From assembly GCF_005925325.1 (NCBI RefSeq), contig NZ_SRMP01000001.1:186001-250000 (forward strand): a stretch of 64,000 bases of DNA, in the 5' to 3' direction. The stretch's first letter is position 1. Each line of letters opens with the position of its first letter. The notes beneath the pieces were generated by a model, which saw only the letters and a program-made list of their open reading frames with translations, was not told the DNA's origin and did not search any database. Positions 20,048-40,645 of this stretch are shown here, piece by piece. The DNA comes from Pedobacter helvus. Lineage in GTDB: Bacteria > Bacteroidota > Bacteroidia > Sphingobacteriales > Sphingobacteriaceae. The translations under genes were made by a program, and so were the position numbers.

Positions 20048-20057
20048 ATTGATGCTG

Positions 20058-20355: not shown

Positions 20356-20432
20356 GCTCCAAAAAGTATTTACGCTACTATCAGGTTTAGAGAACAAAAT
20401 TCCTCCTATCTTTAAATAACAAAACAACAAAA

Positions 20433-20978
20433 ATGACGAACAATTACATCGACTGTGTTAAAAAGCAATTTCAATCTTTCAAAATGCTAGGCGACAAAAC
20501 ATTCGATCAATTAACAGAAGAAGCTTTTTTTTGGCAATATAACGAAGAAAGCAACAGTATAGCCATGATTGTAGACCATCTTTCGGGCAATATGCGTTCT
20601 CGTTTTACAGATTTTCTTACTACAGATGGTGAAAAGGCATGGAGAAATCGGGATCTGGAATTTGAGCCGAAAATCATTACAAAAGCAGAAATCATACAGA
20701 AATGGGAAGATGGTTGGGCATGTTTGTTTGAGGCTATTAACCCGCTCCAAGAAGTAGACTTAAACAAGGTTGTCTACATCCGCAACGAAGAACATACCGT
20801 TATAGAAGCAATCAACAGGCAGTTGGCACATTACCCCTATCACATTGGACAAATAGTAATGCTGGGAAAAATGTTGACTAATCAGGCTTGGCAATCACTT
20901 TCTATTCCTAGAGGCCAATCAAAAGCTTTTAATGATGAAAAGTTTGCACAAACTCAACAAAAAAGCTCATTTCACTGA
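20433..20978 (+). CDS. DinB-superfamily protein, DUF1572 type
   Basis: This 181-residue four-helix-bundle protein carries the three metal-binding His positions of the DinB/YfiT fold: His49 in VDHLSGN, and His133 and His137 in AHYPYHIGQ. DUF1572 members are probable metal-dependent enzymes, possibly thiol-S-transferase-like, with unknown substrates. It is followed 29 bases later by a DUF1801 gene, with which it probably forms a two-gene unit ending at the hairpin near 21493. Confidence 0.8.
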   Translation: MTNNYIDCVKKQFQSFKMLGDKTFDQLTEEAFFWQYNEESNSIAMIVDHLSGNMRSRFTDFLTTDGEKAWRNRDLEFEPKIITKAEIIQKWEDGWACLFEAINPLQEVDLNKVVYIRNEEHTVIEAINRQLAHYPYHIGQIVMLGKMLTNQAWQSLSIPRGQSKAFNDEKFAQTQQKSSFH

Positions 20979-21632: not shown

Positions 21633-22175
21633 TTACTTAATAGGATTTACCTTTACTACAGAAAAAACATACTTACCTAAGTCATAACCTCTAAAATCGG
21701 CTACGTTAATTAGCTTTACATCTTTGCGGCTACCTTGTCTGTACATCATTGCTTCTAACGTATATTTACCGTTTACCTTTACCTGCTGTGCGATATCAGC
21801 AGGCATAATACCGTCTACATTTACTTGGATGTAATTCAAAATAGAACCTGATGGGCGGGTGTTATCATTATATCCGGAGAAAGTACCTAACTTCACCTCC
21901 TGACCACTTACCGTAGTATCTCTAATTGATTTCAACTGCAGAGGCATGTCTTTTAAAAAGTCTTCTTCGTTACTCCAACGTTTAACTTCGTGTTGAAACT
22001 TATCGGTAATTTCTTCATTGGTATTATCACCACTTGTCCACTCGGGGTGTTGGGCAACAAACTCTGATACCTTCTGCTCTATAAAGATGTTTGAGGTAGT
22101 AGTTGCTTCTTTGGTTTCGTTGTTAGTACATGATACAGCTGCTGCAGCTACAAAAAACAGGAAAATTCTTTTCAT
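21633..22175 (-). CDS. Lipoprotein of unknown function
   Basis: This 180-residue protein starts at 22175 (MKRIFLFFVAAAAVSC), which places the lipobox Cys at residue 16; an upstream in-frame ATG at 22199 would spoil the signal. After the lipobox come a Thr-rich linker and a soluble domain with HPEWTSGDN and NYIQVNVDGIMPADIAQQ. I do not recognise the family. It is a single gene with no obvious partner. Confidence 0.75.
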   Translation of the reverse strand: MKRIFLFFVAAAAVSCTNNETKEATTTSNIFIEQKVSEFVAQHPEWTSGDNTNEEITDKFQHEVKRWSNEEDFLKDMPLQLKSIRDTTVSGQEVKLGTFSGYNDNTRPSGSILNYIQVNVDGIMPADIAQQVKVNGKYTLEAMMYRQGSRKDVKLINVADFRGYDLGKYVFSVVKVNPIK

Positions 22176-22338
22176 ACGATATACTTTTATTGGTACCATA
22201 AAGAACGTGAGTTTTGATTTAAAAAAGATGTTTTACTTGTAAAAGGGTTGATACAGGGAAAGGTTATGGATTGTATGGAGCGTTACAACTCGATAGAAGC
22301 TCGTTCTAACCCGCTCTGGCTTAACAATCAACATATAA

Positions 22339-22566
22339 AACCCTCTCTGCCCTTCGGGCATCTCTCCCTAAGAGGGAGAGAAATGCAAAGTTTCATATCA
22401 TTGCTTCGTTTACATCCCGCATTTATAAACCATGCTGATTAACAAGTTTCATTTAAACTTAACGCTACATTCTCTCCCTTTCAGGAAGAGATTAATAAAG
22501 TTACATAGGCATACCCTTACTCTCTCCCTCTTAGGGAGAGATGCCCGAAGGGCAGAGAGAGTTTAA
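22339..22566. repeat. Double-hairpin repeat pair A/C left of DUF559
   Basis: Copy A (22339-22382, forward) and copy C (22521-22564, inverted) bracket 138 bases. Each copy contains a short hairpin (TGCCCTTCGGGCA) followed by a larger one (CTCTCCCT...AGGGAGAG). A lone degraded large hairpin lies at 22471-22491 between them. This pair stands immediately left of the DUF559 gene; the gap 22176-22607 holds nothing else recognisable. Confidence 0.85.
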
Positions 22567-22607
22567 AATTAAACCTTCGAGTTCACTTTATATCTCGCAA
22601 ATTCACT

Positions 22608-22943
22608 TTATGTTAATACTTTAGTTAGATATTCCATTACAACCTCTGGATAGTTTAATACAGCATCATTTTCCAATCTTATCACTGTATATCCTTTAGC
22701 TTTTAAAAGTTCATCCCGTTCCTCATCATATAAAGACTGTCCTAGATTTTCGTGAATACCTCCGTCTAACTCTATAATTAAATTTAGTTTAGGACAATAG
22801 AAATCGACCGTATAATTACCTATCGTATGTTGTCTCCTAAATTTCAGTTTATGAAATCTGTCTGCACGAACTAAATTCCAAAATGCACTTTCAGCAGGAG
22901 TTTGATTCTTGCGAAGTTCCTTTCTAAATGATTTGGCATCCAT
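22608..22943 (-). CDS. DUF559 endonuclease-like protein
   Basis: This 111-residue protein has the DUF559 restriction-endonuclease-like (Vsr-related) fold: KFRRQHTIGNYTVDFYCP followed by LNLIIELDGGIH. The candidate catalytic acids are Asp47, Glu59 and Asp60. Proteins of this family are presumed DNases; targets are unknown. It is bracketed on both sides by inverted pairs of double-hairpin repeats, an arrangement recalling REP-associated transposases. It has no neighbours in an operon. Confidence 0.85.
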   Translation of the reverse strand: MDAKSFRKELRKNQTPAESAFWNLVRADRFHKLKFRRQHTIGNYTVDFYCPKLNLIIELDGGIHENLGQSLYDEERDELLKAKGYTVIRLENDAVLNYPEVVMEYLTKVLT

Positions 22944-23004
22944 AGGTAATTGGCCGACAGTTAAATTTACTATTAATAAATTAATTTATAAGCTTTTGTA
23001 TGAT

Positions 23005-23233
23005 AAACCCTCTCTGGCTGCGCCATCTCTCCCTGAAATGGAGAGAGTAGTATAATGTATATATAAAAATCGTCATTTCTCCGTCCTATCAAACCAGAAT
23101 TGGAAGTATTTACTGATTGTATCCCCATTTCCTATTTGTTTTCCTCTCCCTTTTATGGAGAACCATAGCACAGCAAGCTCATTGATTAAAAAAAATAAAT
23201 AAATATCAGTAAATGCTCGAAGGGCAAAGAAGA
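23005..23233. repeat. Double-hairpin repeat pair D/E right of DUF559
   Basis: Copy D (23005-23049, forward) has TGGCTGCGCCA as its small hairpin. Copy E (23141-23233, inverted) carries an extra stretch of about 50 bases between its two hairpins. The 90-base spacer between D and E resembles the spacer of the next pair F/G, so the two pairs look like tandem copies of one unit. Confidence 0.8.
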
Positions 23234-23287
23234 TAAAATTTCATATGTTTTACCATACATTTTAAATAGTTTCCTTATTGATAAAAT

Positions 23288-23466
23288 AACCCTCTCTGGT
23301 TGCACCATCTCTCCCTAGAAGGGAGAGAGTAGCATGAAGTATATATAAAATTCCCATTTCTCCGTTCTAGTAAAACCCCAAACTGGAGGTATTACTAATT
23401 GCATACCCCGTTCTTATTGGCTTTTCTCTCCCTTTCAGGGAGAGATGCCCGAAGGGCAGAGAGGGT
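23288..23466. repeat. Double-hairpin repeat pair F/G
   Basis: Copy F (23288-23330, forward) has TGGTTGCACCA as its small hairpin. Copy G (23424-23466, inverted) has TGCCCGAAGGGCA. The spacer shares AGTATATATAAAA and CATTTCTCCGT with that of pair D/E. The whole gap 22944-23634 consists of these repeats plus the valS terminator. Confidence 0.85.
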
Positions 23467-23534
23467 AATCAATATTCATTAAACCTCACCCTAGCACTCT
23501 CCTTAAAAAGGAAACGAAACTGGGACAATCCACA

Positions 23535-23566
23535 AAAAAGCCTTCCAGTAATAACTGAAAGGCTTT
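23535..23566 (-). terminator. valS terminator
   Basis: A 13-bp stem with one mismatch (23537-23549 with 23554-23566) and an AATA loop is followed on the minus strand by TTTTTT. It lies 69 bases beyond the valS stop. Confidence 0.8.
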
Positions 23567-23634
23567 GATAACTTATAGTGTCTGTTAGTAGACTATGCTT
23601 GGAAACTTAATACGTGTAACCTATAACTTAAAAC

Positions 23635-26310
23635 TTACAACGCTGCTAAACTCTCTTTAATAATCGCAATTTTAGACTCTGCATCTGCTTTTTTGTTGCG
23701 CTCGTTTTCGATGATTTCTGGTTTTGCATTTTGTACAAAACGTTCGTTGCCCAACTTCGCATCTACCGATTTCAAGAAACCTTGTAAATATGCTAACTCT
23801 TTGGTTAAGCGCTCTTTTTCTGCATCAGCATCTACATTTTGGCTCAATGGGATAAAGAACTCGTCCTTCCCTACCATAAAGCTAGCTGCGCCTACAACTT
23901 TATCACTTACAAAATCAGCTTTGCTGATGTTAGCCAGTTTATAAACAATGTTTAACCAATTGTTATAATTTAGGTCAGAATTTGCTTTGATGCTTAACTC
24001 TAGTGCTTCTTTTGGAGAAATTTGACGAGTGTTTCTTACATTCCTAATTTCCGACACCAATCCTTTCACCAACTCAGCTTCTTTCAACAAACTCTCGTTA
24101 ACAGCACCTACTATCGGATAATCTGCTACGATACAGCAATCCATTTCGCTACGTTCGCCAAACAGTTCATCGTGGTAAAGCTCTTCGGTTAAGAAAGGCA
24201 TAAACGGATGTAACAACTTCAAGATTTGCTCAAAGAAATTCACCGTAGCCGCTTTGGTAGCAGCATCAACAGGTTGTTGGTAAGCAGGTTTTACCATTTC
24301 TAGGTACCAAGCACAGAAATCGTCCCACACCAACTTATAGGTAGCCATTAAAGCTTCCGATAAACGGTACTGCTTAAAGTTATGCTCAATTTCTACCAAT
24401 GCTTCGCTAAAACGGCTTTCGAACCAAGCAATAGCCTGCTCGTTAGGGTTAGCCAAATTGGCATCAGCCTCCCATCCTTTTACCAAACGGAAAGCATTCC
24501 AGATTTTGCTGGCGAAGTTTCTTCCTTGCTCACAGTAAGCCTCATCGAACATTAAATCATTACCCGCAGGCGACGACATTAACATCCCTACCCTAACGCC
24601 ATCTGCTCCGTATTTCTCAATTAAGCCAATTGGATCTGGTGAGTTACCTAAAGATTTAGACATTTTACGACCCAACTTATCGCGAACGATACCTGTTAGA
24701 TACACGTTGGTAAAAGGTTTTTTACCGGTAAACTCACGACCAGCCATGATCATACGTGCTACCCAAAAGAACAAAATCTCTGGCGCAGTCACTAAATCGT
24801 TGGTTGGATAATAGTAGTTAAAATCTTTGTTATCAGGATTTTTAAAACCATCGAAAACCGAGATTGGCCACAACCAAGACGAAAACCAAGTATCCATTAC
24901 ATCTTCGTCTTGTTTCAGATCAGAAGGCTTAAGGTTTAAAGGTTTAGGGTCTAAGTTCTGAGCCTCAGCAAATGCTTCTTCCTGTGTTTTGGCTATCACA
25001 TAAGTTCCATCTGGTAAATACCAAGCCGGAATACGTTGTCCCCACCATAATTGACGAGAAATATTCCAATCGCGAACATTCTCCATCCAATGCTTGTAGG
25101 TGTTCTCGAATTTATTAGGAATTAAGTTTACTTCGCCATTTACCACATCATCTAACGCTGGCTGTGCAAACTCTTTCATTTTCACAAACCACTGTAAGGA
25201 TACTTTAGGCTCAATTACTGCATCGGTACGTTCAGAAAAACCAACCTGTGATTTATAATCTTCTACCTTTTCTAAATTACCTGCTTCTTCGAGCATTTTG
25301 GCAATTTTCTTGCGTGCCACAAAACGATCTTCGCCAACTAAAATTTCGGCCTTTTCGTTCAGTTTGGCATCGTCATCTAAAATATCTAAGAAAGGCGTAA
25401 GGTTATATTTCAAGCCAAGTTCGTAGTCATTGGTATCGTGTGCCGGCGTTACCTTTAAGCAGCCAGTTCCAAATTCCATGTCCACGTACTCATCTGCCAT
25501 TACCTCTATTTCACGGTTAATTAAAGGGATCAATACTTTTTTACCTACCAAGTGCTTAAAACGCTCATCGTTAGGATTTACAAAAATCGCCGCATCGGCC
25601 ATGATCGTTTCCGGACGGGTAGTTGCTATCGTTACATAGTCTGATAGTTGATGGTTGATGGTTGATGGTTGCCCCTCAGCCGTCTCGTCTTTCTGACTAA
25701 CGAAGTACTTGATGTAATATAACTTTGAGTTTACTTCCTTACGGATTACCTCTTCATCAGAAATAGCTGTTTTACCTTGTGGATCCCAGTTTACCATACG
25801 GTAACCACGGTAAATCAGTCCTTTTTTATACAGGTGGATGAAACTATCGATTACGGCGTCAGAAAGATCTTCTTCCATCGTAAAACGGGTTCTGTCCCAA
25901 TCGCAACTGGCACCCAGTTTCTTTAACTGTTCTAAAATAATGCCGCCGTACTTTTCTTTCCATTCCCAAGCATACTTTAAAAATTCCTCACGAGAAAGGT
26001 CTTTTTTGTTGATGCCTTGCTCCTTTAACATCGCTACTACCTTAGCTTCGGTAGCAATAGAAGCGTGATCGGTACCAGGTACCCAACAAGCATTTTTGCC
26101 CTGCATACGAGCCTTACGGATCAATACATCCTGAATGGTGTTGTTAAGCATGTGCCCCATGTGCAATACCCCCGTTACATTTGGTGGAGGAATGACGATG
26201 GTATAAGGCTCACGCTCGTCTGGCTCTGAATGGAAAAAACGTTTCTCCAACCAATAGCTGTACCATTTGTCTTCAGTTTCTTGTGGATTGTATTTTGTAG
26301 CTGTGCTCAT
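23635..26310 (-). CDS. valS: Valyl-tRNA synthetase
   Basis: This class I aminoacyl-tRNA synthetase of 891 residues charges tRNA-Val. The HIGH motif is HMGH (50-53), the editing (CP1) domain follows, and KMSKS is intact near residue 550 (GRKMSKSLGNS). It ends with the usual C-terminal coiled coil. Two short segments look like in-frame low-complexity insertions: about residues 205-225 (GQPSTINHQLSDY), encoded by GTTGATG repeats, and about 450-465 (NLDPKPLNLKPSDLK). Both are in surface parts. Otherwise length and motifs are normal. Confidence 0.97.
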   Translation of the reverse strand: MSTATKYNPQETEDKWYSYWLEKRFFHSEPDEREPYTIVIPPPNVTGVLHMGHMLNNTIQDVLIRKARMQGKNACWVPGTDHASIATEAKVVAMLKEQGINKKDLSREEFLKYAWEWKEKYGGIILEQLKKLGASCDWDRTRFTMEEDLSDAVIDSFIHLYKKGLIYRGYRMVNWDPQGKTAISDEEVIRKEVNSKLYYIKYFVSQKDETAEGQPSTINHQLSDYVTIATTRPETIMADAAIFVNPNDERFKHLVGKKVLIPLINREIEVMADEYVDMEFGTGCLKVTPAHDTNDYELGLKYNLTPFLDILDDDAKLNEKAEILVGEDRFVARKKIAKMLEEAGNLEKVEDYKSQVGFSERTDAVIEPKVSLQWFVKMKEFAQPALDDVVNGEVNLIPNKFENTYKHWMENVRDWNISRQLWWGQRIPAWYLPDGTYVIAKTQEEAFAEAQNLDPKPLNLKPSDLKQDEDVMDTWFSSWLWPISVFDGFKNPDNKDFNYYYPTNDLVTAPEILFFWVARMIMAGREFTGKKPFTNVYLTGIVRDKLGRKMSKSLGNSPDPIGLIEKYGADGVRVGMLMSSPAGNDLMFDEAYCEQGRNFASKIWNAFRLVKGWEADANLANPNEQAIAWFESRFSEALVEIEHNFKQYRLSEALMATYKLVWDDFCAWYLEMVKPAYQQPVDAATKAATVNFFEQILKLLHPFMPFLTEELYHDELFGERSEMDCCIVADYPIVGAVNESLLKEAELVKGLVSEIRNVRNTRQISPKEALELSIKANSDLNYNNWLNIVYKLANISKADFVSDKVVGAASFMVGKDEFFIPLSQNVDADAEKERLTKELAYLQGFLKSVDAKLGNERFVQNAKPEIIENERNKKADAESKIAIIKESLAAL

Positions 26311-27887: not shown

Positions 27888-28088
27888 TTAAAATATGCCA
27901 TGAATTACATCTTCTAAAGGGATATGAAAATAATCTCTCACATGATAGATGGTGATGCGGACTTTCTTTTCCAATTGAAACTTAGCACGGATCTCGTTAT
28001 ATAGCCGATAATTAGTCTTGGTGCCGCCTCCGCTAAAACTCCGAAGATCTTCGGGAAAGAGGACCACTCTTAAGCGTTTTGCTTCCAT
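27888..28088 (-). CDS. Small protein of unknown function next to the recombinase
   Basis: This 66-residue basic protein reads cleanly from ATG to stop and ends in a possible helix-turn-helix-like pair (ITIYHVRDYFHIPLEDVIHG). It is divergent from the tyrosine recombinase at 28215. Position and charge would suit an excisionase or DNA-binding accessory factor, but that is inference only and no family is recognised. Confidence 0.5.
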   Translation of the reverse strand: MEAKRLRVVLFPEDLRSFSGGGTKTNYRLYNEIRAKFQLEKKVRITIYHVRDYFHIPLEDVIHGIF

Positions 28089-28150
28089 AATTTAGATGTT
28101 TGGCACATTGAATTTACAAAAGATTTATAAAAACATAATCATTTGATTAC

Positions 28151-28172
28151 AAAAACCTCACAACCTAAAAGA
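28151..28172. repeat. 22-bp direct repeat, left copy
   Basis: AAAAACCTCACAACCTAAAA followed by GA is repeated without mismatch at 59310-59331. The left copy sits 43 bases before the recombinase start codon. The two copies could be the ends of an integrated island, or just two members of a dispersed short repeat; a looser relative lies near 56661-56680. Confidence 0.5.
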
Positions 28173-28214
28173 ATAGAAATGTCGATTATAAATTCAAAAG
28201 CATAAATTGTATCG

Positions 28215-29264
28215 ATGTACAGAGCCGAATTTATCAAACACCGAGGCGCAGTGCGTATAGCTGTCTATTTTAAAAATGACGCACAGCTGATTGCTAGGTT
28301 TAAAAAATTGCAAGGCGCCAAATGGAGTGCAAGTTTAAAAGTATGGCATTTGCCCAATACTAGTGATTACCGCAAAAGGTTTAGGCTGGAAGAAACGAAC
28401 AATCTAGTTGCCAATCCTATAAACGAGGCACATGAAAAAGCAAAGGATGATTTTTATTTATGGCTAAAGAGTAAGAGATATAGCAAAAGCACCATTAAAA
28501 CCTATACAGAAGCCTTAAAAATATTTTTACTTTTTTATATCGACAAAGATTTACAACAGCTTACAAATGCAGACGTAATTTATTTTAACAACGAATACAT
28601 TTTAAAGAATAAACTTTCCTCATCCTATCAAAATCAAATTGTAAATGCCATCAAATTATTTTTTGGTACTGTACAACGTAAAAAGATTGTAATTGAACAC
28701 ATACATAGACCTAAAAAAGAGAAAACGTTGCCAAACGTACTTAGTAGAGAAGAGGTAAAAGCAATACTGGAAGCACACACCAATATCAAACATAAAGCTA
28801 TGCTTAGTCTTATTTATGCTTGTGGTTTACGCCGAAGCGAATTGTTAAACCTTAGCCCAACACACCTAGATAGTAAACGAGGTGTGTTGCTGATTAAAGA
28901 AGCTAAAGGTAAAAAAGATAGAATTGCACCCATATCTGAAAAGATATTGATATTACTTAGGAACTACTACAGAACTTATAAACCAACGAAATGGTTATTT
29001 GAGGGGCAGCTTATTGGCGAAAAGTATAGTGAAAAAAGTCTAGAAAACGTATTAAAGCAAGCCTTAACAAAAGCTAAGATTATTAAACCTGTAAGCTTGC
29101 ACTGGTTACGACATAGTTACGCTACGCATTTACTAGAAAACGGTACCGATTTACGCTATATTCAAGAACTTTTAGGACGCAAGAGCAGTCGCACTACCGA
29201 AATTTACACACATGTTAGTACTAAAAGTATTAAGAATATCAAAAGCCCTTTTGATGATTTATAA
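28215..29264 (+). CDS. Tyrosine recombinase heading the cassette array
   Basis: This 349-residue site-specific recombinase has an extra N-terminal domain (1-60, AVRIAVYFKNDAQLIARF), a SAM-like core-binding domain (about 72-165) and a catalytic domain. Visible catalytic residues are Arg206 (GLRRSE), Lys234, His296 and Arg299 (HWLRHSYATH) and the nucleophile Tyr331 (TTEIYTHV). The position usually filled by a His or Trp (LGH) is Arg322 (LGRKSS), which is odd. The IntI-specific insertion before HxxR is absent, so it is XerC/D-like rather than a classical integron integrase. It points toward the cassettes, unlike classical intI. A strong promoter motif follows its stop. Confidence 0.9.
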   Translation: MYRAEFIKHRGAVRIAVYFKNDAQLIARFKKLQGAKWSASLKVWHLPNTSDYRKRFRLEETNNLVANPINEAHEKAKDDFYLWLKSKRYSKSTIKTYTEALKIFLLFYIDKDLQQLTNADVIYFNNEYILKNKLSSSYQNQIVNAIKLFFGTVQRKKIVIEHIHRPKKEKTLPNVLSREEVKAILEAHTNIKHKAMLSLIYACGLRRSELLNLSPTHLDSKRGVLLIKEAKGKKDRIAPISEKILILLRNYYRTYKPTKWLFEGQLIGEKYSEKSLENVLKQALTKAKIIKPVSLHWLRHSYATHLLENGTDLRYIQELLGRKSSRTTEIYTHVSTKSIKNIKSPFDDL

Positions 29265-29282
29265 TTTAAAAAGATATATTTG
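29250..29282 (+). promoter_or_regulatory. Candidate cassette promoter (Pc-like)
   Basis: TTTG (29250-29253) and TATATTTG (29275-29282) are separated by 21 bases, the best -33/-7 pair in the window. The promoter overlaps the end of the recombinase gene and would start transcription at the left edge of the attI-like hairpin, reading into the cassettes. Confidence 0.6.
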
Positions 29283-29284
29283 AA

Positions 29285-29372
29285 TAACCCTAAATTCCTC
29301 ACAGCTATGGCGTAAAGCCAACACAATTTAGTTGGATTGGCGACAGTTTATGAGGGGTATAAATAAGTTACC
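29285..29372 (+). other. attI-like palindromic site at the head of the array
   Basis: This 88-base site starts with TAACCC and ends with GTTACC, the junction with cassette 1. Nested inverted repeats are CTAAATT/AATTTAG, CCTCA/TGAGG and CCAAC/GTTGG. It differs in sequence from the attC-like sites but has the same end pattern. It is the expected location for a primary integration site. Confidence 0.6.
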
Positions 29373-29404
29373 TGCTATTATAGAACGACACACCAAAACA
29401 AACA

Positions 29405-30184
29405 ATGGGACTATTTGACAAAATATTTGGAAAAAGCGACAAAATAAAAGTTCAATTCATCGACAACTTGAATGGTCTGACAATTGGTACTTCTGAAATG
29501 ACAGCAGACCAATTACCTGAAACTTTTTCCGTTGAAACAACAATGCACATACAAGATATTGATTGGACTGTTGAACAAGCGATACCTGAAAACTCAACAG
29601 AGTTCATTAAAACAAAAAGCCTTGTTTTGAAAATGAGAAAAGTTGAGAAAATGAACCCTAATGATATTTGGTTCACAACACCGACTATTTCAAACGAATT
29701 TCCTCAACTTACAGAAAAAATAAATGAAACTGAATTTGACATCCAAATTCACGAAGATGATTATAGGCAAAATGAATTTTTAAATTTATCTGCTTTACCA
29801 ATTGTTGAAATAGAAAATATTGCAATTAAAGATATTTGGGAAAATCATAGCAAAAAAAGTGATGAATATACATTATTTAAAAACTGCCACGTTAGGAACA
29901 AAATTGGTTCACCAAACTTGAAAATAAATTTTAGTGAATTGAAAAAAATACTTAAATCAAATTCTGTTGGACAAGTAATAATTAATGGAGAAGTATTGGT
30001 AAATGGTTTTGCAGTTAAGACACTAAACACAACTTACTTTGGAACCTTAAATAACGATATTGTAACTGAACTTTGTATTGCTGAATGGAATGAAAACACT
30101 ACAAACGAAATTTTAGAAATAAACAAAGCATACAATTTGATTTTTGCAAATTGGTTTCACAGTAACATAATTAAAAATGATTAG
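29405..30184 (+). CDS. Cassette 1 protein of unknown function
   Basis: I do not recognise this 259-residue protein. It begins MGLFDKIFGKSDKIKVQFID, has no signal peptide or membrane segment, and looks like a mixed alpha/beta cytosolic protein. It overlaps the kptA start by 8 bases. The two genes form one cassette bounded by GTTACCTGCT at 29367 and the left core at 30741-30750, so they probably moved together. No own promoter motif is seen. Confidence 0.75.
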   Translation: MGLFDKIFGKSDKIKVQFIDNLNGLTIGTSEMTADQLPETFSVETTMHIQDIDWTVEQAIPENSTEFIKTKSLVLKMRKVEKMNPNDIWFTTPTISNEFPQLTEKINETEFDIQIHEDDYRQNEFLNLSALPIVEIENIAIKDIWENHSKKSDEYTLFKNCHVRNKIGSPNLKINFSELKKILKSNSVGQVIINGEVLVNGFAVKTLNTTYFGTLNNDIVTELCIAEWNENTTNEILEINKAYNLIFANWFHSNIIKND

Positions 30185-30731
30185 CGAAAAGCAAATAATA
30201 CATATAAGTAAGTTTTTAAGTTTGGTATTACGACACCAACCTGAAACTATTGGCATTCAACTTGACCAAAATGGATGGACTGACGTAGACGATTTAATTG
30301 AAAAGGCAAATAATTATGGAATTAAGTTTGACAGAGAAACACTTATTCACATTGTAGCAACAAATGCCAAAAAGAGATTTGCATTTAATGACACATTTGA
30401 CAAGATAAGAGCAAGTCAAGGACATTCCATTGAAATAGAATTAGGTTATACAAACCATAAACCACCAGAAATATTATTTCACGGAACAGCCGAAAAATTT
30501 GTCAAATCAATTTTAGACACAGGACTTGAAAAGCGAAACAGACAACACGTTCATTTAAGTAGCGACTTAGAAACTGCGATTAAAGTTGGACAAAGACACG
30601 GAAAGCCATTTGTATTTGAAGTTTTTGCCAAACAAATGTACAACGACAATTTTCAGTTCTACATTTCTGACAATAGTGTTTGGTTAACTGACAATGTACC
30701 GACAAAATACTTGAAACAAAATGACAAATAA
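30177..30731 (+). CDS. kptA: RNA 2'-phosphotransferase KptA/Tpt1
   Basis: This 184-residue enzyme family removes an internal 2'-phosphate from RNA, transferring it to NAD+. It has the N-terminal winged-helix lobe with SKFLSLVLRHQPE (Arg19, His20), KKRFAF with Arg67, and the ART-like lobe with ILFHGTAEKF and RQHVHLSS. Length is typical. In bacteria, which lack tRNA ligase-type splicing, the physiological substrate is unclear. Here it is the second gene of cassette 1, overlapping its partner by 8 bases. Confidence 0.92.
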   Translation: MISEKQIIHISKFLSLVLRHQPETIGIQLDQNGWTDVDDLIEKANNYGIKFDRETLIHIVATNAKKRFAFNDTFDKIRASQGHSIEIELGYTNHKPPEILFHGTAEKFVKSILDTGLEKRNRQHVHLSSDLETAIKVGQRHGKPFVFEVFAKQMYNDNFQFYISDNSVWLTDNVPTKYLKQNDK

Positions 30732-30744
30732 AATAATAACAGCA

Positions 30745-30874
30745 GGTAACAGCAGTTTGGCAAAATGGCGGGTTCAGTGCTAAATTCAACAACAGTTCTT
30801 CGATTGAACTTTTGTGCAAAACTGAACATTTGTGCTTCGATTTCCGCCACTTCGCCAAGCTGCCAACCGTTACC
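30745..30874 (+). repeat. attC-like site 1
   Basis: GGTAAC (30745-30750) and GTTACC (30869-30874) form the outer pair, TTTGGC...GCCAA and ATGGCGG...CCGCCA the inner stem. The variable middle contains CTTCGATTGAACTTTTGTGC and TTTGTGCTTCGATTT. The ten bases at 30741-30750 are the exact reverse complement of cassette 1's first ten bases (29367-29376). Confidence 0.85.
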
Positions 30875-30901
30875 AGCAATTTAAAAACACAGCGTACCAA
30901 G

Positions 30902-31585
30902 ATGAATGAACAATTAAAAAGAATTCAAGGCAAAATTGAGCAACTGCGACAATTGGACAAAAACTTAACTCTTTTTGGCTCTAACAGACATAAATATAAC
31001 CTCAATCCAAAATTATCGGAAGAAACTCTCTTAAACTTCGAGAATACACATAATATAACTTTGCCAGAAGATTATAAAGAGTTTTTAACTAAAATCGGAA
31101 ATTGAGGTGTTGGTCCTGGTTATGGACTTGAAACATTTGAAAATGGATTATTTGATGATTTGGATTATAAACGACCGAACTCTTTACTAAATCCGAGTAA
31201 GCCTTTTCCTCGTACAAAACCTTGGAATGAAGAATTTGTATCAACAGTTAACGAAGAAGACAATGAAGAAGAATATGAAAGACAATATTCTGAGTTTAGC
31301 AAAAACCTAATGAATGGAGTTTTAGCAATCTCAAATTTTGGATGTGGAATTAGCCTAAATTTAGTTGTAAATGGAGAAGAATATGGAAATATTTGGACAG
31401 ATGACAGAGGAAATGATGGAGGAATTTATCCTTCTCACGAACTTGGGAATAAAGACAAAATTACATTTCTAAATTGGTATGAATTGTGGCTTGATAATTC
31501 ACTAAATGAAATCAAGGACAAATTAGAAAATAAAGAAATAGAGGTTAAAAATACAAACCAAAAACCCTGGTGGAAAATTTGGTAA
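30902..31585 (+). pseudogene. SMI1/KNR4-like gene with in-frame stop (cassette 2)
   Basis: The frame opens at 30902 (MNEQLKRIQGK), includes the SUKH-type segment ITLPEDYKEFLTKIGN, meets a TGA at 31103-31105, and continues in the same frame as GVGPGYGLETFENG to 31585. Relatives have IGNGGVGPGYGL here, so a single GGA-to-TGA change explains the break. SUKH proteins are often immunity proteins against polymorphic toxins. Truncation at residue 67 probably inactivates it, unless the stop is read through or is a sequencing error. Confidence 0.8.
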
Positions 31586-31599
31586 ATAAAAAAACGGCA

Positions 31600-31730
31600 G
31601 GTAACAAGGGCTTTGCAATAGTGGGGCGAAACTGCAAAGTTCAACGGTTGTTCTTCGATTTAACTTTTGTGTAAAAATTGAGGATTTGTGCTTCGTTTGC
31701 CCCACCATCGCAAAGCCCCGAAACGTTATG
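31600..31730 (+). repeat. attC-like site 2
   Basis: GGTAAC (31600-31605) and GTTATG (31725-31730) are the outer cores. GGGCTTTGC...GCAAAGCCC and AGTGGGGCGAA...TTTGCCCCACCAT form a long stem. Left core plus flank matches the start of cassette 2 as reverse complement at 8 of 10 bases. Confidence 0.85.
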
Positions 31731-31761
31731 CAACACTTTTTACGACCAAACCTTTAGACAG

Positions 31762-32295
31762 ATGGTAGACAAAGAAAGAAGACAAAAGTTAGCTTTACAT
31801 TTACGCCACCTTGCAGTTGGACTTATTTCAAACGACGAATTTGAAGACAACATTACTGACGATGTAACAAATGGTTGGCTACCTGAACAATATTACAGAG
31901 CAAAAGAAGCTAAGTTTGACGACAAAATAATTCAACCAATGCTTGAACTTTGCTGGGGACTTTACGACGACACAAGAAACCACAAGTTAATAGGTGCCGA
32001 TAGACTATCTGAAGAAGCATTAAAAGTTATTTCAAGGTGCATTTTGTTCCTAAAAAGTGACCAAGAGTATGAATGGCCGTACTTTGACCAGAACAATCCA
32101 TTGTTGAAATTTTCTTTGGGAGAAATAATCATCACAATTTTATCTTTCGGCCAGTATTACAGAGACGTCAGAAAGGAGAAAGAAAAAGCTTTTGAAGAAT
32201 TTAAAAAACTTGGAGACTTTGATATTTGGCCATTCTTAAATCAAGACGACTATCAATTTCAACTAAAACACCAACCGTTTTTTAAAATAGCATAA
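31762..32295 (+). CDS. Cassette 3 protein of unknown function
   Basis: This 177-residue acidic, mainly helical protein starts at 31762 (MVDKERRQKLALHLRHLAVG), 37 bases after the cassette junction; an upstream frame extension lies in the attC-like site. No signal peptide; one short hydrophobic stretch (LGEIIITILSFG) is too weak for a membrane segment. The family is not recognised. It is the only gene in its cassette. Confidence 0.75.
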   Translation: MVDKERRQKLALHLRHLAVGLISNDEFEDNITDDVTNGWLPEQYYRAKEAKFDDKIIQPMLELCWGLYDDTRNHKLIGADRLSEEALKVISRCILFLKSDQEYEWPYFDQNNPLLKFSLGEIIITILSFGQYYRDVRKEKEKAFEEFKKLGDFDIWPFLNQDDYQFQLKHQPFFKIA

Positions 32296-32306
32296 ATAAA
32301 AGCGTC

Positions 32307-32441
32307 GCATAACAACAGGTTTAAGTTAAGCCTCGGGCGAAGTGAGAACACAATTATTTGAAGCCATTTATTTAGCTTAGTGCTGTGGATGGTTGGTGCA
32401 AGTAAATTTTAGGCTCAACTTAAACCTGCAAAACGTTAGTG
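32307..32441 (+). repeat. attC-like site 3
   Basis: GCATAAC (32307-32313) pairs with the start of its own cassette GTTATGC (31725). The stem AACAGGTTTAAGTT/AACTTAAACCTG is well preserved, and the right core GTTAGTG is at 32435-32441. The stem sequence differs from sites 2, 4 and 8 while keeping the same architecture. Confidence 0.82.
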
Positions 32442-32464
32442 GCAATTTTTTTGAGAACCGAACA

Positions 32465-33611
32465 ATGAAACAAATTTTACTTTTATTAACGACATTTTTG
32501 ACTTTGGCTTGCAATGGACAAGAAACAAAGCCAGATGAATTTATATTGACCGTTTCGCCAATTATTGAGAAGACTGAAAAAACCAATCGGAAGATTATTG
32601 AAACATTAACAGAATTTCTGAAAACTAAAAATTCCTCTTTGACAGAAAACAAATATTGGGCTCAATCTGATTTTCAAAAATTCATTTATCCCTATCTTGA
32701 CATTTATAATATCGAAAATTCAAAATTTGGAAAAAATTTTTATTTACCAACTTTAGTTGAAATAATTCCGACCGAAAAATCAAACAGAAGAATTGTAAAA
32801 GTTGCCTTTATCGGACATAACAATGAAACAAAAGAAAATCAACTGAAATCAATTTACAATCTTGTAGCTAATATTACTCAGGACAAAGTTTTGTTTAGTA
32901 GATATTTGGATTTCTCAACAGAAGAATGGAAAACATTTAATACTGGAAGTTTGACCTACAAAGTTTCGCCCAATAAAACCATCAACGAAACTGAAATTGC
33001 TGAACAACAAAAAGATATTGATAAAATTTGCAACTTCTTTCGATGTAAACCAATGGCAATTACCTATTATTCTTGTGTAAGTCCGAAAGAACTATTTGAA
33101 ATTAAAGGTTTTTGATTATAATCCAATGATGTATGTTGACAAAACCGGCGGACTTGCCGATTACAGAAATATCATCTATTCAGGAAATAACTCTGAAATT
33201 TATACACACGAAATAATTCACATTTATACCAGTAATCTTTTTCCAAAGATTGACAAATTTATCGATGAGGGTATTGCAACATTTATGGCAGGTAGTGGAA
33301 AATACAATTACGAATGGCACAGAAACAAACTTGACAAATTCCTAAACGAAAATAAATATTTCGATTTTGCGACACATACAGACGCGTATGAAAGAATTTA
33401 TTTTGAAAAAGAAACCTCAATCCCCTATTTGACTTCTGCCTTAATTTTGGAGCGGACATTAAAATTTTACGGAAAAGAGAAGTTAATAGAATTATTAAAG
33501 TCTGAAAATGAACTTTGGACGGCCTTAAAAAAAGTAGGATTGACAAAAGAAAATATAAACCACGAATTACGAAAACAAATAAAACTGCCACTAACAGGGG
33601 TTTTGCAATAG
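32465..33611 (+). pseudogene. Lipoprotein with HExxH motif, frameshifted (cassette 4)
   Basis: The first part (32465-33115) starts with a lipoprotein signal (MKQILLLLTTFLTLACNGQ, Cys16). The second part (frame of 33096-33611) carries THEIIHIYT, a zinc-metallopeptidase HExxH motif, followed by DEGIATFMAG, a likely third-ligand region. The junction reads IKGF|DYNPMMYVDK, and an extra T in the run at about 33107-33112 explains the shift. Together they make about 380 residues of peptidase-MA-like type. The break may be real decay, slippage or a sequencing error. The stop codon lies inside attC-like site 4. Confidence 0.8.
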
Positions 33612-33720
33612 TGGGGCGAAACTGCAAAGTTCAACAGTTGTATTTCTATTGAACTTTTGTGCAAAATTGAAGATTTGTTCTTCGATTGCCCCACCATCGC
33701 AAAGCCCCGAAACGTTAGCT
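33587..33720 (+). repeat. attC-like site 4
   Basis: Left core TGCCACTAAC (33586-33595) is the exact reverse complement of cassette 4's first ten bases (32435). GGGGTTTTGC and AGTGGGGCGAA pair with GCCCCACCAT and CGCAAAGCCCC. The right core GTTAGCT is at 33714-33720. The end of the upstream gene runs into this site. Confidence 0.87.
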
Positions 33721-33751
33721 GATATTCTAAATGAGAAATACTAGAAAATAA

Positions 33752-34387
33752 ATGAATAAAATATTTCAATTTAATCGATGCCTTACAAACGGAATGGATT
33801 ATTTCATAGGTGCAGACCCATACGCTTTGTTGGATTTTAAAAAAAGAAATAACCTTGATGACGATTTGCTAACGGAATTTACAACAAACGATAGCGGGGA
33901 TAATGTTGTGACTGAAGGAATAATGATACCTCTTGAAAAATGTGCAATTGTACCGCATACTATTTACGTGAATTTTAGCGAGAAAAATCGCGTATTGACA
34001 AATGAGGAAAATGATTTTCAATTTAAAGAAGGGAGTTATCCTTTAAAGATTGTAAGTGGAATTTTTTGTGTTTTCGCAATTGACTATTTAGAAAACTTTA
34101 CAGAAGAAGCGGTAGAAAACATTATAACACTTTATCGAGACAAAAATTACGCAATAATTGATTTGGATAATGGTTGGTATTCTGTAGAAATTCTTGCCGG
34201 ACTTACTCAACAAAATTTTGAAAAATCTTCCTATCACTGGGGAGAAATTATGGATGATATGGAACCAACTTTTGAATTTTGCCTACATAAACAAGTTGAA
34301 AAACCAAAACTAACAGCAAAACTTAACCGAGAATATAAAATCGAAATTAATAAGGACATTTATAAAAACAGAAGAATTTTTAAATAG
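33752..34387 (+). CDS. Cassette 5 protein of unknown function
   Basis: This 211-residue soluble protein starts at 33752 (MNKIFQFNRCLTNGMDYFIGADPYALL). It has no signal peptide or membrane segment, and I do not recognise its family. Short beta-rich motifs such as GIMIPLEKCAIVPHTIYVNF suggest an alpha/beta fold. It is the only gene of cassette 5 and ends 12 bases before the left core of site 5. Confidence 0.75.
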   Translation: MNKIFQFNRCLTNGMDYFIGADPYALLDFKKRNNLDDDLLTEFTTNDSGDNVVTEGIMIPLEKCAIVPHTIYVNFSEKNRVLTNEENDFQFKEGSYPLKIVSGIFCVFAIDYLENFTEEAVENIITLYRDKNYAIIDLDNGWYSVEILAGLTQQNFEKSSYHWGEIMDDMEPTFEFCLHKQVEKPKLTAKLNREYKIEINKDIYKNRRIFK

Positions 34388-34399
34388 AGTATAAAGAAC

Positions 34400-34487
34400 A
34401 TCAGCTAACAAAAAGCGGGGCTGAAGTTTTTCGATTGAATTTTTGTGCTGAAAATCCCCGCCTTCGGCAAACCCCAAAACGTTAGCA
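34400..34487 (+). repeat. attC-like site 5
   Basis: This is a short form (88 bases). Left core ATCAGCTAAC (34400-34409) is the exact reverse complement of cassette 5's first ten bases (33714-33723). AAGCGGGGCTGAA pairs with AAATCCCCGCCTT; right core GTTAGCA at 34481-34487. Confidence 0.87.
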
Positions 34488-34528
34488 GTAATTTTAAGGA
34501 GCGAACGGACAACAAACAACAGACTAAT

Positions 34529-35701
34529 ATGGACAGAGAAAAACCAATAAACATTTCATTGACAAGTACAAATAGCCACATTTTTAAAATCCCACTTGGA
34601 CAAGGAAGTTTTTCAATTGGCGAAATTGGTATGGACAAAAAGAAATTTGATGTTCTTGTCGAAAAAAAGTTACCAATCAATTGGAATGCGTTCGATGAAT
34701 TTACCACACCAGCAGGTGGACATTGGCCAAGATTTTTTTATTATTATGGAAACGATATTGGTTTTATTGAATGGTCAAAAAAGAGAGCAATAGAGGATTT
34801 CTTTTGGTTCCCTACTGATGAAATTTCAATTGATTTAACTAATGTCCAAATTCGGAGCTTCTCAATTAAAGCAAACGAAAATAGAATAAAGCTGATTTTG
34901 GATAATCAAAATATTGACAAACAATTTGGTTTGAAATCACTTAACTTATCAGGGAATATCGAAAATTTTGAGATTGTATCAAATAATGCTAATCCATACA
35001 TAAGAATTAACCCCAGTACGAAAAAGGGAAAAACAGAATTGCCATATAAACTACCCGTTTTAAAAAGTTTAGATACAATTACTTCGCTTGATATAACAAT
35101 TGAGCCATTAGGCCAAGCTTTTGATTGTGAAAGTTTATTGCAATTTCCAAATCTGAAAATTTTAAACTTGTTAGGAAACATTACAAATGTGACCTATTTA
35201 CAGAACTTCAAAAACCTAGAGCATTTGGGAATAAGATATGCACCAAATTTGGAAAATTTCCCATCTCTAAATTCTTGGAACAATCTTAAATCTTTTATCG
35301 GTTGGAATATTGATGACACAACAGGAAAAAGGTTAAATACAGAATTAAAACAATTAGCAAAGACAAGAGAATTAGATTATTCTTCGGTTTCTAAATTGAG
35401 AAGTCCTATTTGGTTTGCCACAGAATATGGAATTCCATTTACAAATTGGGAAACCAAAAATGCAAAAATTGCAACTAAGGCATATAAATCAGCATTGAAA
35501 GAAATTGCAAAAGCTAAAACAGAAAACGAAGTCAAAACCTCAATTGTCGGATTTATCGAAATCATAAATAAATTACCGAACATAGAAACCGTAGAAAGAG
35601 AAGATACAGGAACTGCAATTATTCAATTGGTTGAGGCCTCAAAATTGAACATTTCACACGAAACTGCCAATAATTGGTTTGACGAAATTCGAGACTTTTA
35701 A
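34529..35701 (+). CDS. Leucine-rich-repeat-like protein (cassette 6)
   Basis: This 390-residue protein starts at 34529 (MDREKPINISLTSTNSHIFK); the longer frame would begin in the attC-like site. The middle (about 140-270) has irregular leucine-rich repeats, for example LKSLNLSGNIENFEI, LDTITSLDITIEPLG and LKILNLLGNITNVTYL. The C-terminal part is helical and Lys-rich. There is no signal peptide. A protein-binding role is likely from the repeats; the partner is unknown. A second LRR-like protein lies at 48970. Confidence 0.78.
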   Translation: MDREKPINISLTSTNSHIFKIPLGQGSFSIGEIGMDKKKFDVLVEKKLPINWNAFDEFTTPAGGHWPRFFYYYGNDIGFIEWSKKRAIEDFFWFPTDEISIDLTNVQIRSFSIKANENRIKLILDNQNIDKQFGLKSLNLSGNIENFEIVSNNANPYIRINPSTKKGKTELPYKLPVLKSLDTITSLDITIEPLGQAFDCESLLQFPNLKILNLLGNITNVTYLQNFKNLEHLGIRYAPNLENFPSLNSWNNLKSFIGWNIDDTTGKRLNTELKQLAKTRELDYSSVSKLRSPIWFATEYGIPFTNWETKNAKIATKAYKSALKEIAKAKTENEVKTSIVGFIEIINKLPNIETVEREDTGTAIIQLVEASKLNISHETANNWFDEIRDF

Positions 35702-35708
35702 AAAACTT

Positions 35709-35789
35709 CTGCTCACAAGGGTTTTGCGTCAGGCGGGCTGACTTTGTGCTCCGAAACCCGCCCGAACGCAAAGCCACAGAACGTTGGCG
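35709..35789 (+). repeat. attC-like site 6
   Basis: The shortest site (81 bases). Left core CTGCTCAC (a one-base departure from CTGCTAAC), stem GGCGGGCTGA...CCGAAACCCGCCCGAA and TTTTGCG...CGCAAAG, right core GTTGGCG at 35783-35789. Reverse complement match to cassette 6 start is 8 of 10. Confidence 0.8.
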
Positions 35790-35816
35790 GCAATATTAAA
35801 ACAAACATTCTACAAA

Positions 35817-36731
35817 ATGACAAGATTAGTAACAACATTATTCATACTTCTAATTGGACAAACAACAATTTTTGCCCAAAATCCTGAAAAAGTAACAATT
35901 GACAGTACACATTATTATTATAAACTTGTACCAAAGTCAAAACCAGTTGGGACAATTATTATTCTTCACGGTGGTTCGGAAGATGCAAAAGGAGTAATGA
36001 ATCAAATCTCTTTAGATGAAATTGCTCTTAAAAATAACTTCATTGTCGTTTTTCCAAATATTGAAGATGATGATTTTAAAATGACGATAGCACAACAAAT
36101 GTTAGACACCATAGCTAAACAAATAGTTGACAAGCACAAGGTGTCAAAAGACAAAATATTTCTTGGTGGACTTTCAGGTGGTGGAATGCTGACAATAACT
36201 TATACTGAAAGAGCGATTAGAGATAAAAATACCTATTTCACACCAAAAGCAATTTTTGCACTTGACCCACCACTTGACTATGAAAATATGTATTATCGTT
36301 ATCAACGAGAAGTGGAGAGAAATTTTTCAGAAGTTGGTGTAAACGAAGCTAAGTGGTTTTTGGAAGAAATGGAGAAAAATTTGGGAGGAAAACCTGAAAC
36401 AGCTAAGGATGAATACATCAAAAATTCAATGTTTTCATACCGACAAAAAGATGGTGGAAATGCAAAATATTTACTAAATATTCCAGTTAGAATTTATACT
36501 GAGCCAGGTGTAGAGTGGCAATTAAAAAACAGACATAGAGATTTATATGACTTGAATTGTACAGACATTTCAGCAATGATAAATTTTCTACAACTGAAAG
36601 GCAATAAAAACGCCGACATTGTAGTAACTCACGACAAAGGAGTAAGACCAGACGGAACAAAACATCCTCATTCTTGGTCAATCATGAATTCTAAAAATTG
36701 TATGACTTGGATTTTAAAACAACTGAAATAA
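35817..36731 (+). CDS. Exported alpha/beta hydrolase (cassette 7)
   Basis: This 304-residue protein starts at 35817 with a signal peptide (MTRLVTTLFILLIGQTTIFA). It has the esterase pattern: oxyanion-hole IIILHGGSED, nucleophile elbow GLSGGGM, and a late His in KHPHSWSIM. The family covers esterases, acyl-hydrolases and dipeptidyl-peptidase-like enzymes; the substrate is not predictable. Export to the periplasm or surface is expected. It is the sole gene of its cassette. Confidence 0.83.
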   Translation: MTRLVTTLFILLIGQTTIFAQNPEKVTIDSTHYYYKLVPKSKPVGTIIILHGGSEDAKGVMNQISLDEIALKNNFIVVFPNIEDDDFKMTIAQQMLDTIAKQIVDKHKVSKDKIFLGGLSGGGMLTITYTERAIRDKNTYFTPKAIFALDPPLDYENMYYRYQREVERNFSEVGVNEAKWFLEEMEKNLGGKPETAKDEYIKNSMFSYRQKDGGNAKYLLNIPVRIYTEPGVEWQLKNRHRDLYDLNCTDISAMINFLQLKGNKNADIVVTHDKGVRPDGTKHPHSWSIMNSKNCMTWILKQLK

Positions 36732-36739
36732 AAAAGACC

Positions 36740-36892
36740 GCCACCAACATCGGTTTGGCAATATGGCGGCTGAAGTGCTTCTATTGAACATTTGTGCAAG
36801 GTTCAACGGTAGTTCTTCGATTGAAATTTTGTATAAAACTGAACATTTGTGCTTCGATTTCCGCCACTTCGCCAAGCTGCAAAACGTTAGTG
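36740..36892 (+). repeat. attC-like site 7
   Basis: Left core GCCACCAAC (36740-36748), stem TCGGTTTGGCAATATGGCGG with CCGCCACTTCGCCAAGC, right core GTTAGTG at 36886-36892. It is the longest site (153 bases), and its middle repeats the TTCAACGG/CTTCGATTGAA and TTTGTGC elements. Match to cassette 7 start is 8 of 10. Confidence 0.84.
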
Positions 36893-36932
36893 GTAATGCT
36901 TGACCGACTGAAACCTGACTAAAAAACAAGAA

Positions 36933-37562
36933 ATGAAGACAGAAATTTTAGAAAAAATAAAACAACTTGGAGGAAATATTGACAACGTTAAAGGAAACTC
37001 ATTAGCGGAGGATATTCTATCAATAACTTTTAACACTGTTCTTTATCAAAAACCCGAAGACACACCTTGGCAAACAGCTGAAAATGCTGAGCCAATTTAC
37101 GGAATTGGAGGATTTATAAATGAAAATGAAGAGCTTTTCAAAACAGACAAACAAGCACTTTATGACAAAATAATTGATAAATATTTTCGCTTAACCAAAG
37201 AAGGCTACGGACAAGTATTTTGGCAACCAAGACTTTTTACACCTTTCAGAGAAGGAACAGAAGACTTTGCAGAATGGAATACTGATTTCACTGACGAAAA
37301 AGAAACTGATTTAAGTAAAATAATAAAAGTCACAAACGACAAAACGCCAGACTTTATTGAACTATTTTATAGTTATGGTTTCCCTGACAATTATTACATC
37401 TGTTTGAGCGACCCAAATCAAGAAAATCCAACTTTATTTGGAACTGACCACGAAGTATATTTCAGAGAAGTGACTAATGAAGGAAATCTTGAAGATTTTT
37501 TAAATACATTTATGACAAAAGACGAACTTTTAGAAATTGTAAAAAAACGAATTGAAAAGTAG
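36933..37562 (+). CDS. Cassette 8 protein of unknown function
   Basis: This 209-residue soluble protein starts at 36933 (MKTEILEKIKQLGGNIDNVK). The C-terminal part (FYSYGFPDNYYICLSDPN, then GTDHEVYFREVTNEGNLEDF) recalls SUKH/SMI1-type folds, but the match is too loose to name. There is no signal peptide. It is the last gene with well-preserved attC-like sites on both sides. Confidence 0.72.
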   Translation: MKTEILEKIKQLGGNIDNVKGNSLAEDILSITFNTVLYQKPEDTPWQTAENAEPIYGIGGFINENEELFKTDKQALYDKIIDKYFRLTKEGYGQVFWQPRLFTPFREGTEDFAEWNTDFTDEKETDLSKIIKVTNDKTPDFIELFYSYGFPDNYYICLSDPNQENPTLFGTDHEVYFREVTNEGNLEDFLNTFMTKDELLEIVKKRIEK

Positions 37563-37563
37563 C

Positions 37564-37697
37564 ACTACCACCAAGGGTTTTGCGATAGTGGAGCGAAACT
37601 GCAAAGTTCAACGGTAGTTCTTTGGTTCAACTTTTGTACAAAATTGAAGACATTTGCTTCGATTGCCTCACCATCGCAAAGCGCCGACACGTTAATA
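37564..37697 (+). repeat. attC-like site 8
   Basis: Stem AAGGGTTTTGCGATAGTGGA with TGCCTCACCATCGCAAAGC, right core GTTAATA at 37691-37697. The left core has changed from AAC to ACC (CACTACCACC), and it no longer pairs with the start of cassette 8. It is the last intact-looking site of the main array. Confidence 0.78.
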
Positions 37698-40486: not shown

Positions 40487-40645
40487 GATAACAACCTATT
40501 GGCAATAATAGGACAGACAGTTTGCAAAATCAACATTTGTAATTTTATTGACCATTCGTGCAGATGCTTAGCTGACGTTTTGAAATAAATGCAAGCATTG
40601 CTCTGAAATCTCCACCTTCGGCAAGCATCGAACCATTTGTGGCAG
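40487..40645 (+). repeat. Degraded attC-like site
   Basis: GATAAC (40487-40492) with CTATTGGCAATAATAGGAC at the left, and CTCCACCTTCGGCAAGC with an altered right core (CCATTTGTGG) at the right. The architecture is recognisable, but pairing is weak. Confidence 0.55.

Follow-up and report, generated by a model that had tools for sequence, protein, structure and literature searches.

RESULTS AND DISCUSSION

A cassette array probably run by a recombinase without I2

We analysed a 64000-nt stretch of Pedobacter helvus DNA (contig NZ_SRMP01000001.1, positions 186001–250000, forward strand; hereafter the window), which carries a tyrosine recombinase gene and, behind it, an array of small gene units. 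Comparison of this locus with related loci of the phylum indicates that the array is very probably a cassette-capturing, integron-like element run by a tyrosine recombinase that is related to XerA and IntI and lacks I2, the insertion of integron integrases. Judged by its sequence the element would function like an integron, and it shares most of the integron anatomy, yet it is not an IntI integron, failing both the IntI and the extrahelical-base features. An earlier note, made from the sequence of the window alone, had described a recombinase followed by eight plus-strand gene units, each with an imperfect palindrome behind it. This description was borne out, the recombinase gene too being on the plus strand (Table 1). 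The core-to-core lengths of the eight sites ranged from 80 to 151 nt.

Structure of the sites and the circular signature

A covariance model trained on 23 sites, including two window sites, recovered all eight window sites (E values of 2.7e-17 to 1.1e-6) together with one additional reverse-strand echo, of site 1. When seven window sites were aligned (the short site 5 was omitted), 14 of 25 stem pairs were altered on both sides, as against 1–4 with the partner strand slid and a mean of 7.2 after shuffling. The bottom strand gave the more stable fold at 8/8 window sites and at 30/39 of a wider set that included two of them. A search of Rfam gave no match. A model with trimmed loops (R1) was too weak on long sites and model R2 was used instead, and a simple left-end pattern was dropped with 41 matches compared with 56 for its reversed control.

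The left core of a site (R'') and the start of its own cassette meet only in an excised circle, and the two should therefore pair. At positions 5–12 of the window left cores, 50 of 64 positions paired with the start of the own cassette compared with 27 of 64 with the own right core, and only two of 200000 permutations reached 50. We then took 69 recombinase loci, made up of the window, 28 contig loci and 40 genome regions of the same phylum. In 70 cassettes at these loci the mean match was 5.8 of 8 to the own cassette start and 2.76 to the own right core, and six or more of the eight positions matched in 54 and three cassettes respectively. Such matching of a left core to its own cassette start is the mark expected of units that have passed through circles.

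The R box was resolved by position in 98 cassettes that had been selected for pairing at positions 5–10. Positions 12–15, which lie outside this selection, paired in 77–90% of them, position 10 paired in 57%, and position 11 was invariably A (98/98), this A lying unpaired in 97 cassettes. Over the 69 loci the R''-to-R' span was narrow, with a median of 118 nt (interquartile range 117–119). The R'' pairing, the pairing at 12–15 and the mispaired A at position 11 are not what passive repeats would be predicted to show.

Cassettes in different positions of different arrays

The longest open reading frame lay on the plus strand in 107 of the 114 cassettes, out of 164, that had closed ends and a length under 2.5 kb. 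The earlier note had taken a cassette order that never varies among close relatives to speak against its interpretation. Comparison of arrays across loci revealed cassettes that follow attI in one array and a site in another. One such pair was 99.3% identical between loci of the same genus (L106/L109), a second was 99.4% identical between two arrays of one chromosome (L029/L032), and a third was 78% identical (L087/L096). The left edge of all three was the G of GTT; in the first two the alignment continued some 20 nt beyond the last GTT. In a further pair, L079/L132, 99.3% identical and from different families, the right edge was exactly GTT and the left alignment ran 23 nt into a similar site arm. 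Comparison thus showed that cassettes stand in the attI and attC positions of different arrays, with sharp left edges at GTT, as judged from their sequences. Other pairs were set aside. The first cassette of L115/L122 was shared at 99.25% identity behind two different recombinases, but its flanks were alike too (91% over 1.3 kb); L079/L092 was rejected as proof of movement; and the L082 and L094 pairs each lay inside one locus and partly overlapped themselves.

Two kinds of element that run opposite to the cassettes, an IS110-family transposase and a group II intron, are present in the array on a Chryseobacterium plasmid (L218, NZ_CP041688.1). By eye, they seem to interrupt sites in the part that separates R'' from the left stem (19244–20850, 21705–23710 and 28030–28780 of this locus). 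Insertion of IS110-family transposases and group II introns inside the site is known likewise for canonical attC. The same array has, at 18241 and ~20700, a non-coding element of ~200 bp, starting GTTGGG, which by eye recurs behind attI and behind at least two sites.

Recurrence across Bacteroidota

Downstream of the recombinase, the 69 loci had 118 sites on its strand in 565 kb, compared with three upstream in 287 kb; the recombinase clade, for which the earlier note had proposed such a check, does co-occur with arrays. On the opposite strand there were 12 sites in 913 kb, some of which, e.g. in the window, were the same palindromes read backwards. In 20 regions beside more distant recombinases, 30 sites lay downstream in 269 kb, one upstream and four on the opposite strand. 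First-order resampled downstream sequence gave a single match, and none of 115–121 nt. Where at least 1 kb of downstream sequence was present, 42 of 55 loci had a site.

We also surveyed 395 genomes, scoring at most 12 candidates per genome and counting site matches at E≤0.001 and recombinase relatives at E≤1e-45. Site matches were found in 137/395 genomes: 35/38 with the close recombinase clade, 44/77 with more distant relatives and 58/280 with neither. Genomes with four or more matches had the close clade in 16/33 cases and the close clade or a relative in 29/33. The idea that the palindromes occur mostly away from this clade, named in the earlier note as evidence against its proposal, holds by raw count at one match or more, the close clade being absent from 102 of the 137 genomes and every relative from 58. 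It is opposed by the shares of 35/38 and 29/33 and by the downstream, same-strand position of the sites at the loci. Taken together, an integron-like cassette system appears, by these sequence matches, to be present in many Bacteroidota, and the suggestion that a recombinase of this kind moves the cassettes is supported by its linkage to the sites, the cassette edges and the circular signature.

The recombinase was also found on two Chryseobacterium plasmids, one with three sites of 118–119 nt and the other with a single 180-nt match. The genome of the window has elsewhere another site-like match, on the minus strand (G000:C9:146547-146673; E 1.2e-4, model R1). Downstream of a related recombinase at L125 (G312:C9), four matches all had the same score and a span of 115 nt and lacked circular support; they may be a different repeat.

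The attI-like region and a candidate promoter

At most loci a conserved end like TATAAAnnA/GTT was present ~69–132 nt past the last codon of the recombinase, so that attI adjoins the recombinase gene as in canonical integrons. In the window, the attI-like core at GTT 29367 pairs with the first attC. Within 450 nt, the GTTR that paired best matched R'' of the first site at 6–7 of 8 positions in 33 of the 43 site-bearing close loci, and it lacked such pairing in 10. Five attI copies of the UKL13-3 chromosome were 98% identical over the 106 nt to GTT and 39% identical beyond. With the circular signature, an attI and co-oriented cassettes all present, the organization of integron cassettes with attC-like sites, as first proposed for the window, is upheld.

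The motif TTTG-N17-22-TAnnTTTG, which we take to be the Bacteroidota promoter consensus, lay over the 3' end of the recombinase gene at 20 of 62 loci and in the window, compared with 3/1240 random windows and 0/116 cassette starts, all of these being motif matches only. At loci L044, L045 and L048 the recombinase match was confined to the last 55, 49 and 20 residues respectively, followed by an attI-like stretch; upstream sequence was present at these loci. Such 3' ends have perhaps been kept because a promoter overlaps them.

The recombinase and its relatives

None of the family models was passed by the window recombinase. The best matched was NF040815 (XerA-type/integron integrase; 203.3 bits, cut-off 220), followed by TIGR02249 (integron integrase; 185.4 bits, cut-off 265) and the XerC/XerD models TIGR02225 and TIGR02224 (182.6 vs 329.6 and 172.2 vs 335.15 respectively). 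XerA, archaeal Xer and IntI4 took the top ranks in a fold search with a predicted model (predicted local distance difference test score 80, predicted template modelling score 0.51). That the protein lacks the IntI insertion proved correct, as 0/59 IntI-only columns were filled; a second alignment had 39 such columns, and the insertion region has 64 residues in IntI4 compared with 22 in the window recombinase. Groups B, C and D, which are I2-less as well, filled 0–5 of the 59 columns. The protein also has, as the earlier note said, a different N-terminal domain; it is an extra domain that is not common to all array-bearing relatives, whose matches often start at about residue 60–79. This domain matched DUF5710 (E 0.02) and HARP (E 0.15) below cut-off, and a HARP-like role is not claimed. 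The gene does point into the array.

The IntI rows, all from this phylum, formed a clade excluding the window recombinase with a support of 100. In a smaller, quick tree the I2-less rows all grouped to the exclusion of IntI (89), and in two larger trees IntI was nested within I2-less groups that are in part array-bearing (in one of them with group D, 99/99). Approximately unbiased tests rejected neither a single I2-less clade (P=0.215) nor a clade of the array-bearing groups plus IntI (P=0.391). As a tentative reading, which we hold to be somewhat less probable than its opposite, cassette capture may predate I2, and the array-bearing I2-less recombinases of Bacteroidota may be the stem group of canonical IntI; its odds are lowered because the smaller tree puts IntI outside all I2-less rows.

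Proposed mechanism and evidence against it

In the mechanism that we propose, transcription into the first cassette would start from a promoter located where the recombinase gene ends. The recombinase would join the double-stranded attI to the folded bottom strand of attC, or one attC to another, at G/TT, and such joining would insert or release cassettes. The circle form of the site would combine four elements: an R box of ~15 positions, of which position 11 is a mispaired A; an internal loop with unequal sides; an L stem of 20 bp, in which a mispaired A at position 14 hardly varies; and a loop of ~72 nt. The least certain step is that the mispaired adenines and the unequal loop might replace extrahelical bases and the I2 helix in the choice of strand.

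Several points weigh against this interpretation. Recombination is predicted here from sequence comparison, and I2 is held to be necessary for cassette capture by IntI (PMC7790495). Among the 85 I2-less tree rows an array was present in 33, absent in 28 and unclear in 24. Thirteen of the 55 loci with at least 1 kb downstream had no site, the strict promoter pattern was absent at 42 of 62 recombinase ends, and at least one site match occurred in the 58/280 genomes without a related recombinase, where the matches may represent orphan arrays, missed recombinases or false matches. The stem scorer picks sites by arm pairing, and the stem covariation of the wider set is thus partly built in; the edges, the span and the circular signature are not built in by this choice. 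Finally, residue 322 of the window recombinase (29178–29180) is Arg where the His of the catalytic pentad is nearly invariant, this residue being His in at least 90% of 35 aligned proteins.

The substitution suggests that the recombinase copy of the window may be impaired, and its activity is doubtful; our comparative evidence concerns the recombinase family. We considered that the system is real and the window copy a fossil with an impaired recombinase and a decaying array, which is compatible with the cassette-capturing explanation and which we judge to have an even chance of being true. Besides the Arg at position 322, an in-frame stop in the SUKH-like gene (31103–31105) and a frame change in the peptidase-like gene (near 33100) fit such decay, as do degenerate or half sites seen by eye past the array (40490–40640 and ~41170 of the window), beyond several further plus-strand genes, which suggest an older, decaying tail. 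Against it, the recombinase has kept an open reading frame and shares 98% identity with a copy that has the His, and eight sites are still recognizable.

The cassettes could instead be mobilized by XerC/XerD, the chromosome-dimer recombinases of the host, in the way in which these serve CTX-type phages, with the adjacent recombinase as a passenger. The genome of the window does have an XerD over cut-off (L168) and an XerC-like gene (L193, a label assigned here), and XerCD are described as integrating a phage as a single-strand hairpin (PMC4792948, PMC7790495). The sites, however, lie directly downstream of one recombinase lineage, on its strand and behind a conserved attI, and they mark nearly all close-clade genomes (35/38), whereas an XerD-type match was present in 13/13 near relatives and sites in only 137/395 genomes of the phylum. 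We thus regard this explanation as improbable. CTX phages and integrative mobile elements exploiting XerCD resemble the I2-less system in that a folded single strand is inserted without I2 (PMC4792948, PMC7790495), and differ from it in having neither their own recombinase nor cassette arrays.

Comparison with canonical integrons and other systems

The window system resembles canonical integrons in its cassette arrays, its attI, palindromic sites with a circular R box, co-oriented genes that mostly seem to lack their own promoters, putative exchange at GTT, which is also where canonical integrons exchange, and a bottom strand favoured by folding. It differs in having no IntI insertion, no one-sided extrahelical bases, an extra N-terminal domain and a recombinase gene pointing into the array, and in its R box of ~15 positions, the canonical R box being ~7 bp.

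To compare the two site groups, we used canonical IntI genes over cut-off. Of 198 Bacteroidota genomes, 57 had such a gene, including one genome marked as the same class as that of the window. One gapped scorer was applied to both groups, and circular support was required for both because palindromes score on both strands and a first gapped-arm scan was too noisy. The left arm of I2-less sites showed a mean excess of −0.03 nt (n=75, 25 loci), with an excess of at least 2 nt in nine; 17 were free of bulges. For IntI-associated sites, read on the strand opposite intI, the mean left excess was 2.12 nt (n=25, 10 loci), at least 2 nt in 17, and all were bulged; read on the other strand the value was −1.38 (n=16). 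This difference in arm excess links the missing I2 to the missing one-sided extrahelical bases. The canonical attC core consensus, RYYYAAC/GTTRRRY, was met by 11 and 17 of 118 I2-less sites, but IntI-associated sites of the phylum also missed it (met by three and two of 19), and it was dropped as a discriminator. In the IntI arrays L205, L209, L212, L215 and L200, the sites are mostly 120–130 nt with a left arm ~2–3 nt longer and cores off consensus.

These results bear on whether the palindromes are attC sites of canonical integrons that are moved in trans by an IntI encoded elsewhere. Model R2 gave 19 weak matches (E up to 1, best 23.7 bits) at five of 20 IntI loci, on one strand each, which we read as their probable canonical attC sites, and six of 14 successive pairs of these showed circular pairing of six or more, both of which speak for this reading. 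Against it stand the difference between the arms, the genome of the window, in which no IntI was over cut-off, and the stem scorer, which beside 20 of 64 listed IntI places gave three matches, none of 115–121 nt. On 20 I2-less loci, some of which had supplied training sites, R2 gave 151 matches of up to 85 bits, opposite-strand echoes included. We consider movement in trans by IntI slightly less probable even than movement by XerC/XerD. The idea that passive repeats (terminators or REP-like elements) separate the genes here by chance would fit the palindromic, intergenic and same-strand nature of the sites, but the left cores matching their own cassette starts, the cassettes in different positions with exact left edges and the conserved mispairs and 118-nt span make it the most improbable explanation of all.

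The reverse-oriented integrases of Spirochaetota are IntI that carry the insertion. There is thus a precedent for a recombinase gene that faces its array: typical Spirochaetota IntI are generally reverse-oriented (PMC9668308), and the likeness in orientation is taken from that description. XerA and XerC-like archaeal recombinases (5hxy, 4a8e; NF040815) gave the best sequence, model and fold matches and likewise have no insertion. They have a dimer-resolution type of function, and we know of no cassette arrays or attI associated with them.

Features of the locus

Gene labels from the earlier note held for KptA (PF01885, 172.7 bits; NF002014, 254.6 against a cut-off of 239). Those for the LRR and the hydrolase were matched only below cut-off, and no family was matched by the peptidase-like gene or by the SUKH-like gene, which was scanned past its in-frame stop. 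PADLOC run on nine cassette-gene stretches gave no match.

Table 1 Features of the cassette array, with positions counted from the first nucleotide of the window
Feature	Position	Strand	Details
I2-less tyrosine recombinase (XerA/IntI-like), 349 aa	28215..29264	+	ORF (open reading frame), profile and alignment comparisons
Extra N-terminal domain of recombinase	residues 1-57	+	within 28215..29264
Candidate Pc, Bacteroidota-type promoter motif TTTG-N-TAnnTTTG	29250..29282	+	overlaps recombinase gene 3' end
attI-like region	29265..29369	+	end TATAAATAA/GTT; GTT at 29367
Cassette 1	29368..30869	+	protein of unknown type 29405-30184; KptA 30177-30731
attC-like site 1	30745..30874	+	right core GTT 30869; core-to-core 132
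Cassette 2	30870..31725	+	SUKH-like (earlier label), in-frame stop
attC-like site 2	31600..31730	+	right core GTT 31725; core-to-core 133
Cassette 3	31726..32435	+	unknown
attC-like site 3	32308..32440	+	right core GTT 32435; core-to-core 135
Cassette 4	32436..33714	+	peptidase-like (earlier label), frame change
attC-like site 4	33590..33719	+	right core GTT 33714; core-to-core 132
Cassette 5	33715..34481	+	unknown
attC-like site 5, short variant	34394..34486	+	right core GTT 34481; core-to-core 85
Cassette 6	34482..35783	+	LRR-like, below cut-off
attC-like site 6, short variant	35711..35788	+	right core GTT 35783; core-to-core 80
Cassette 7	35784..36886	+	alpha/beta-hydrolase-like, below cut-off
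attC-like site 7	36743..36891	+	right core GTT 36886; core-to-core 151
Cassette 8	36887..37691	+	unknown
attC-like site 8	37567..37696	+	right core GTT 37691; core-to-core 129

Significance

The putative I2-less, integron-like recombinase system is a new variant beside the IntI integrons. No description of such a system was found in the literature searched; preprints and most subscription journals were outside its scope, so one may exist. The I2 helix is held to have let a recombinase of double strands act on single-strand hairpins; it reportedly occurs in no other known protein, and its deletion is reported to abolish IntI1 function (PMC7790495). The origin of I2 and attC without each other has been called a chicken-and-egg paradox (PMC4792948). 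A natural cassette system without I2 and without one-sided extrahelical bases would make this question directly testable. The finding also points to a pool of cassettes in a group where IntegronFinder 2.0 reported one complete Bacteroidetes integron, in Salinibacter ruber (PMC9024848). The I2-less system may help to show how integrons first arose, and if it represents instead the independent origin of a second integron system, this would be equally new.

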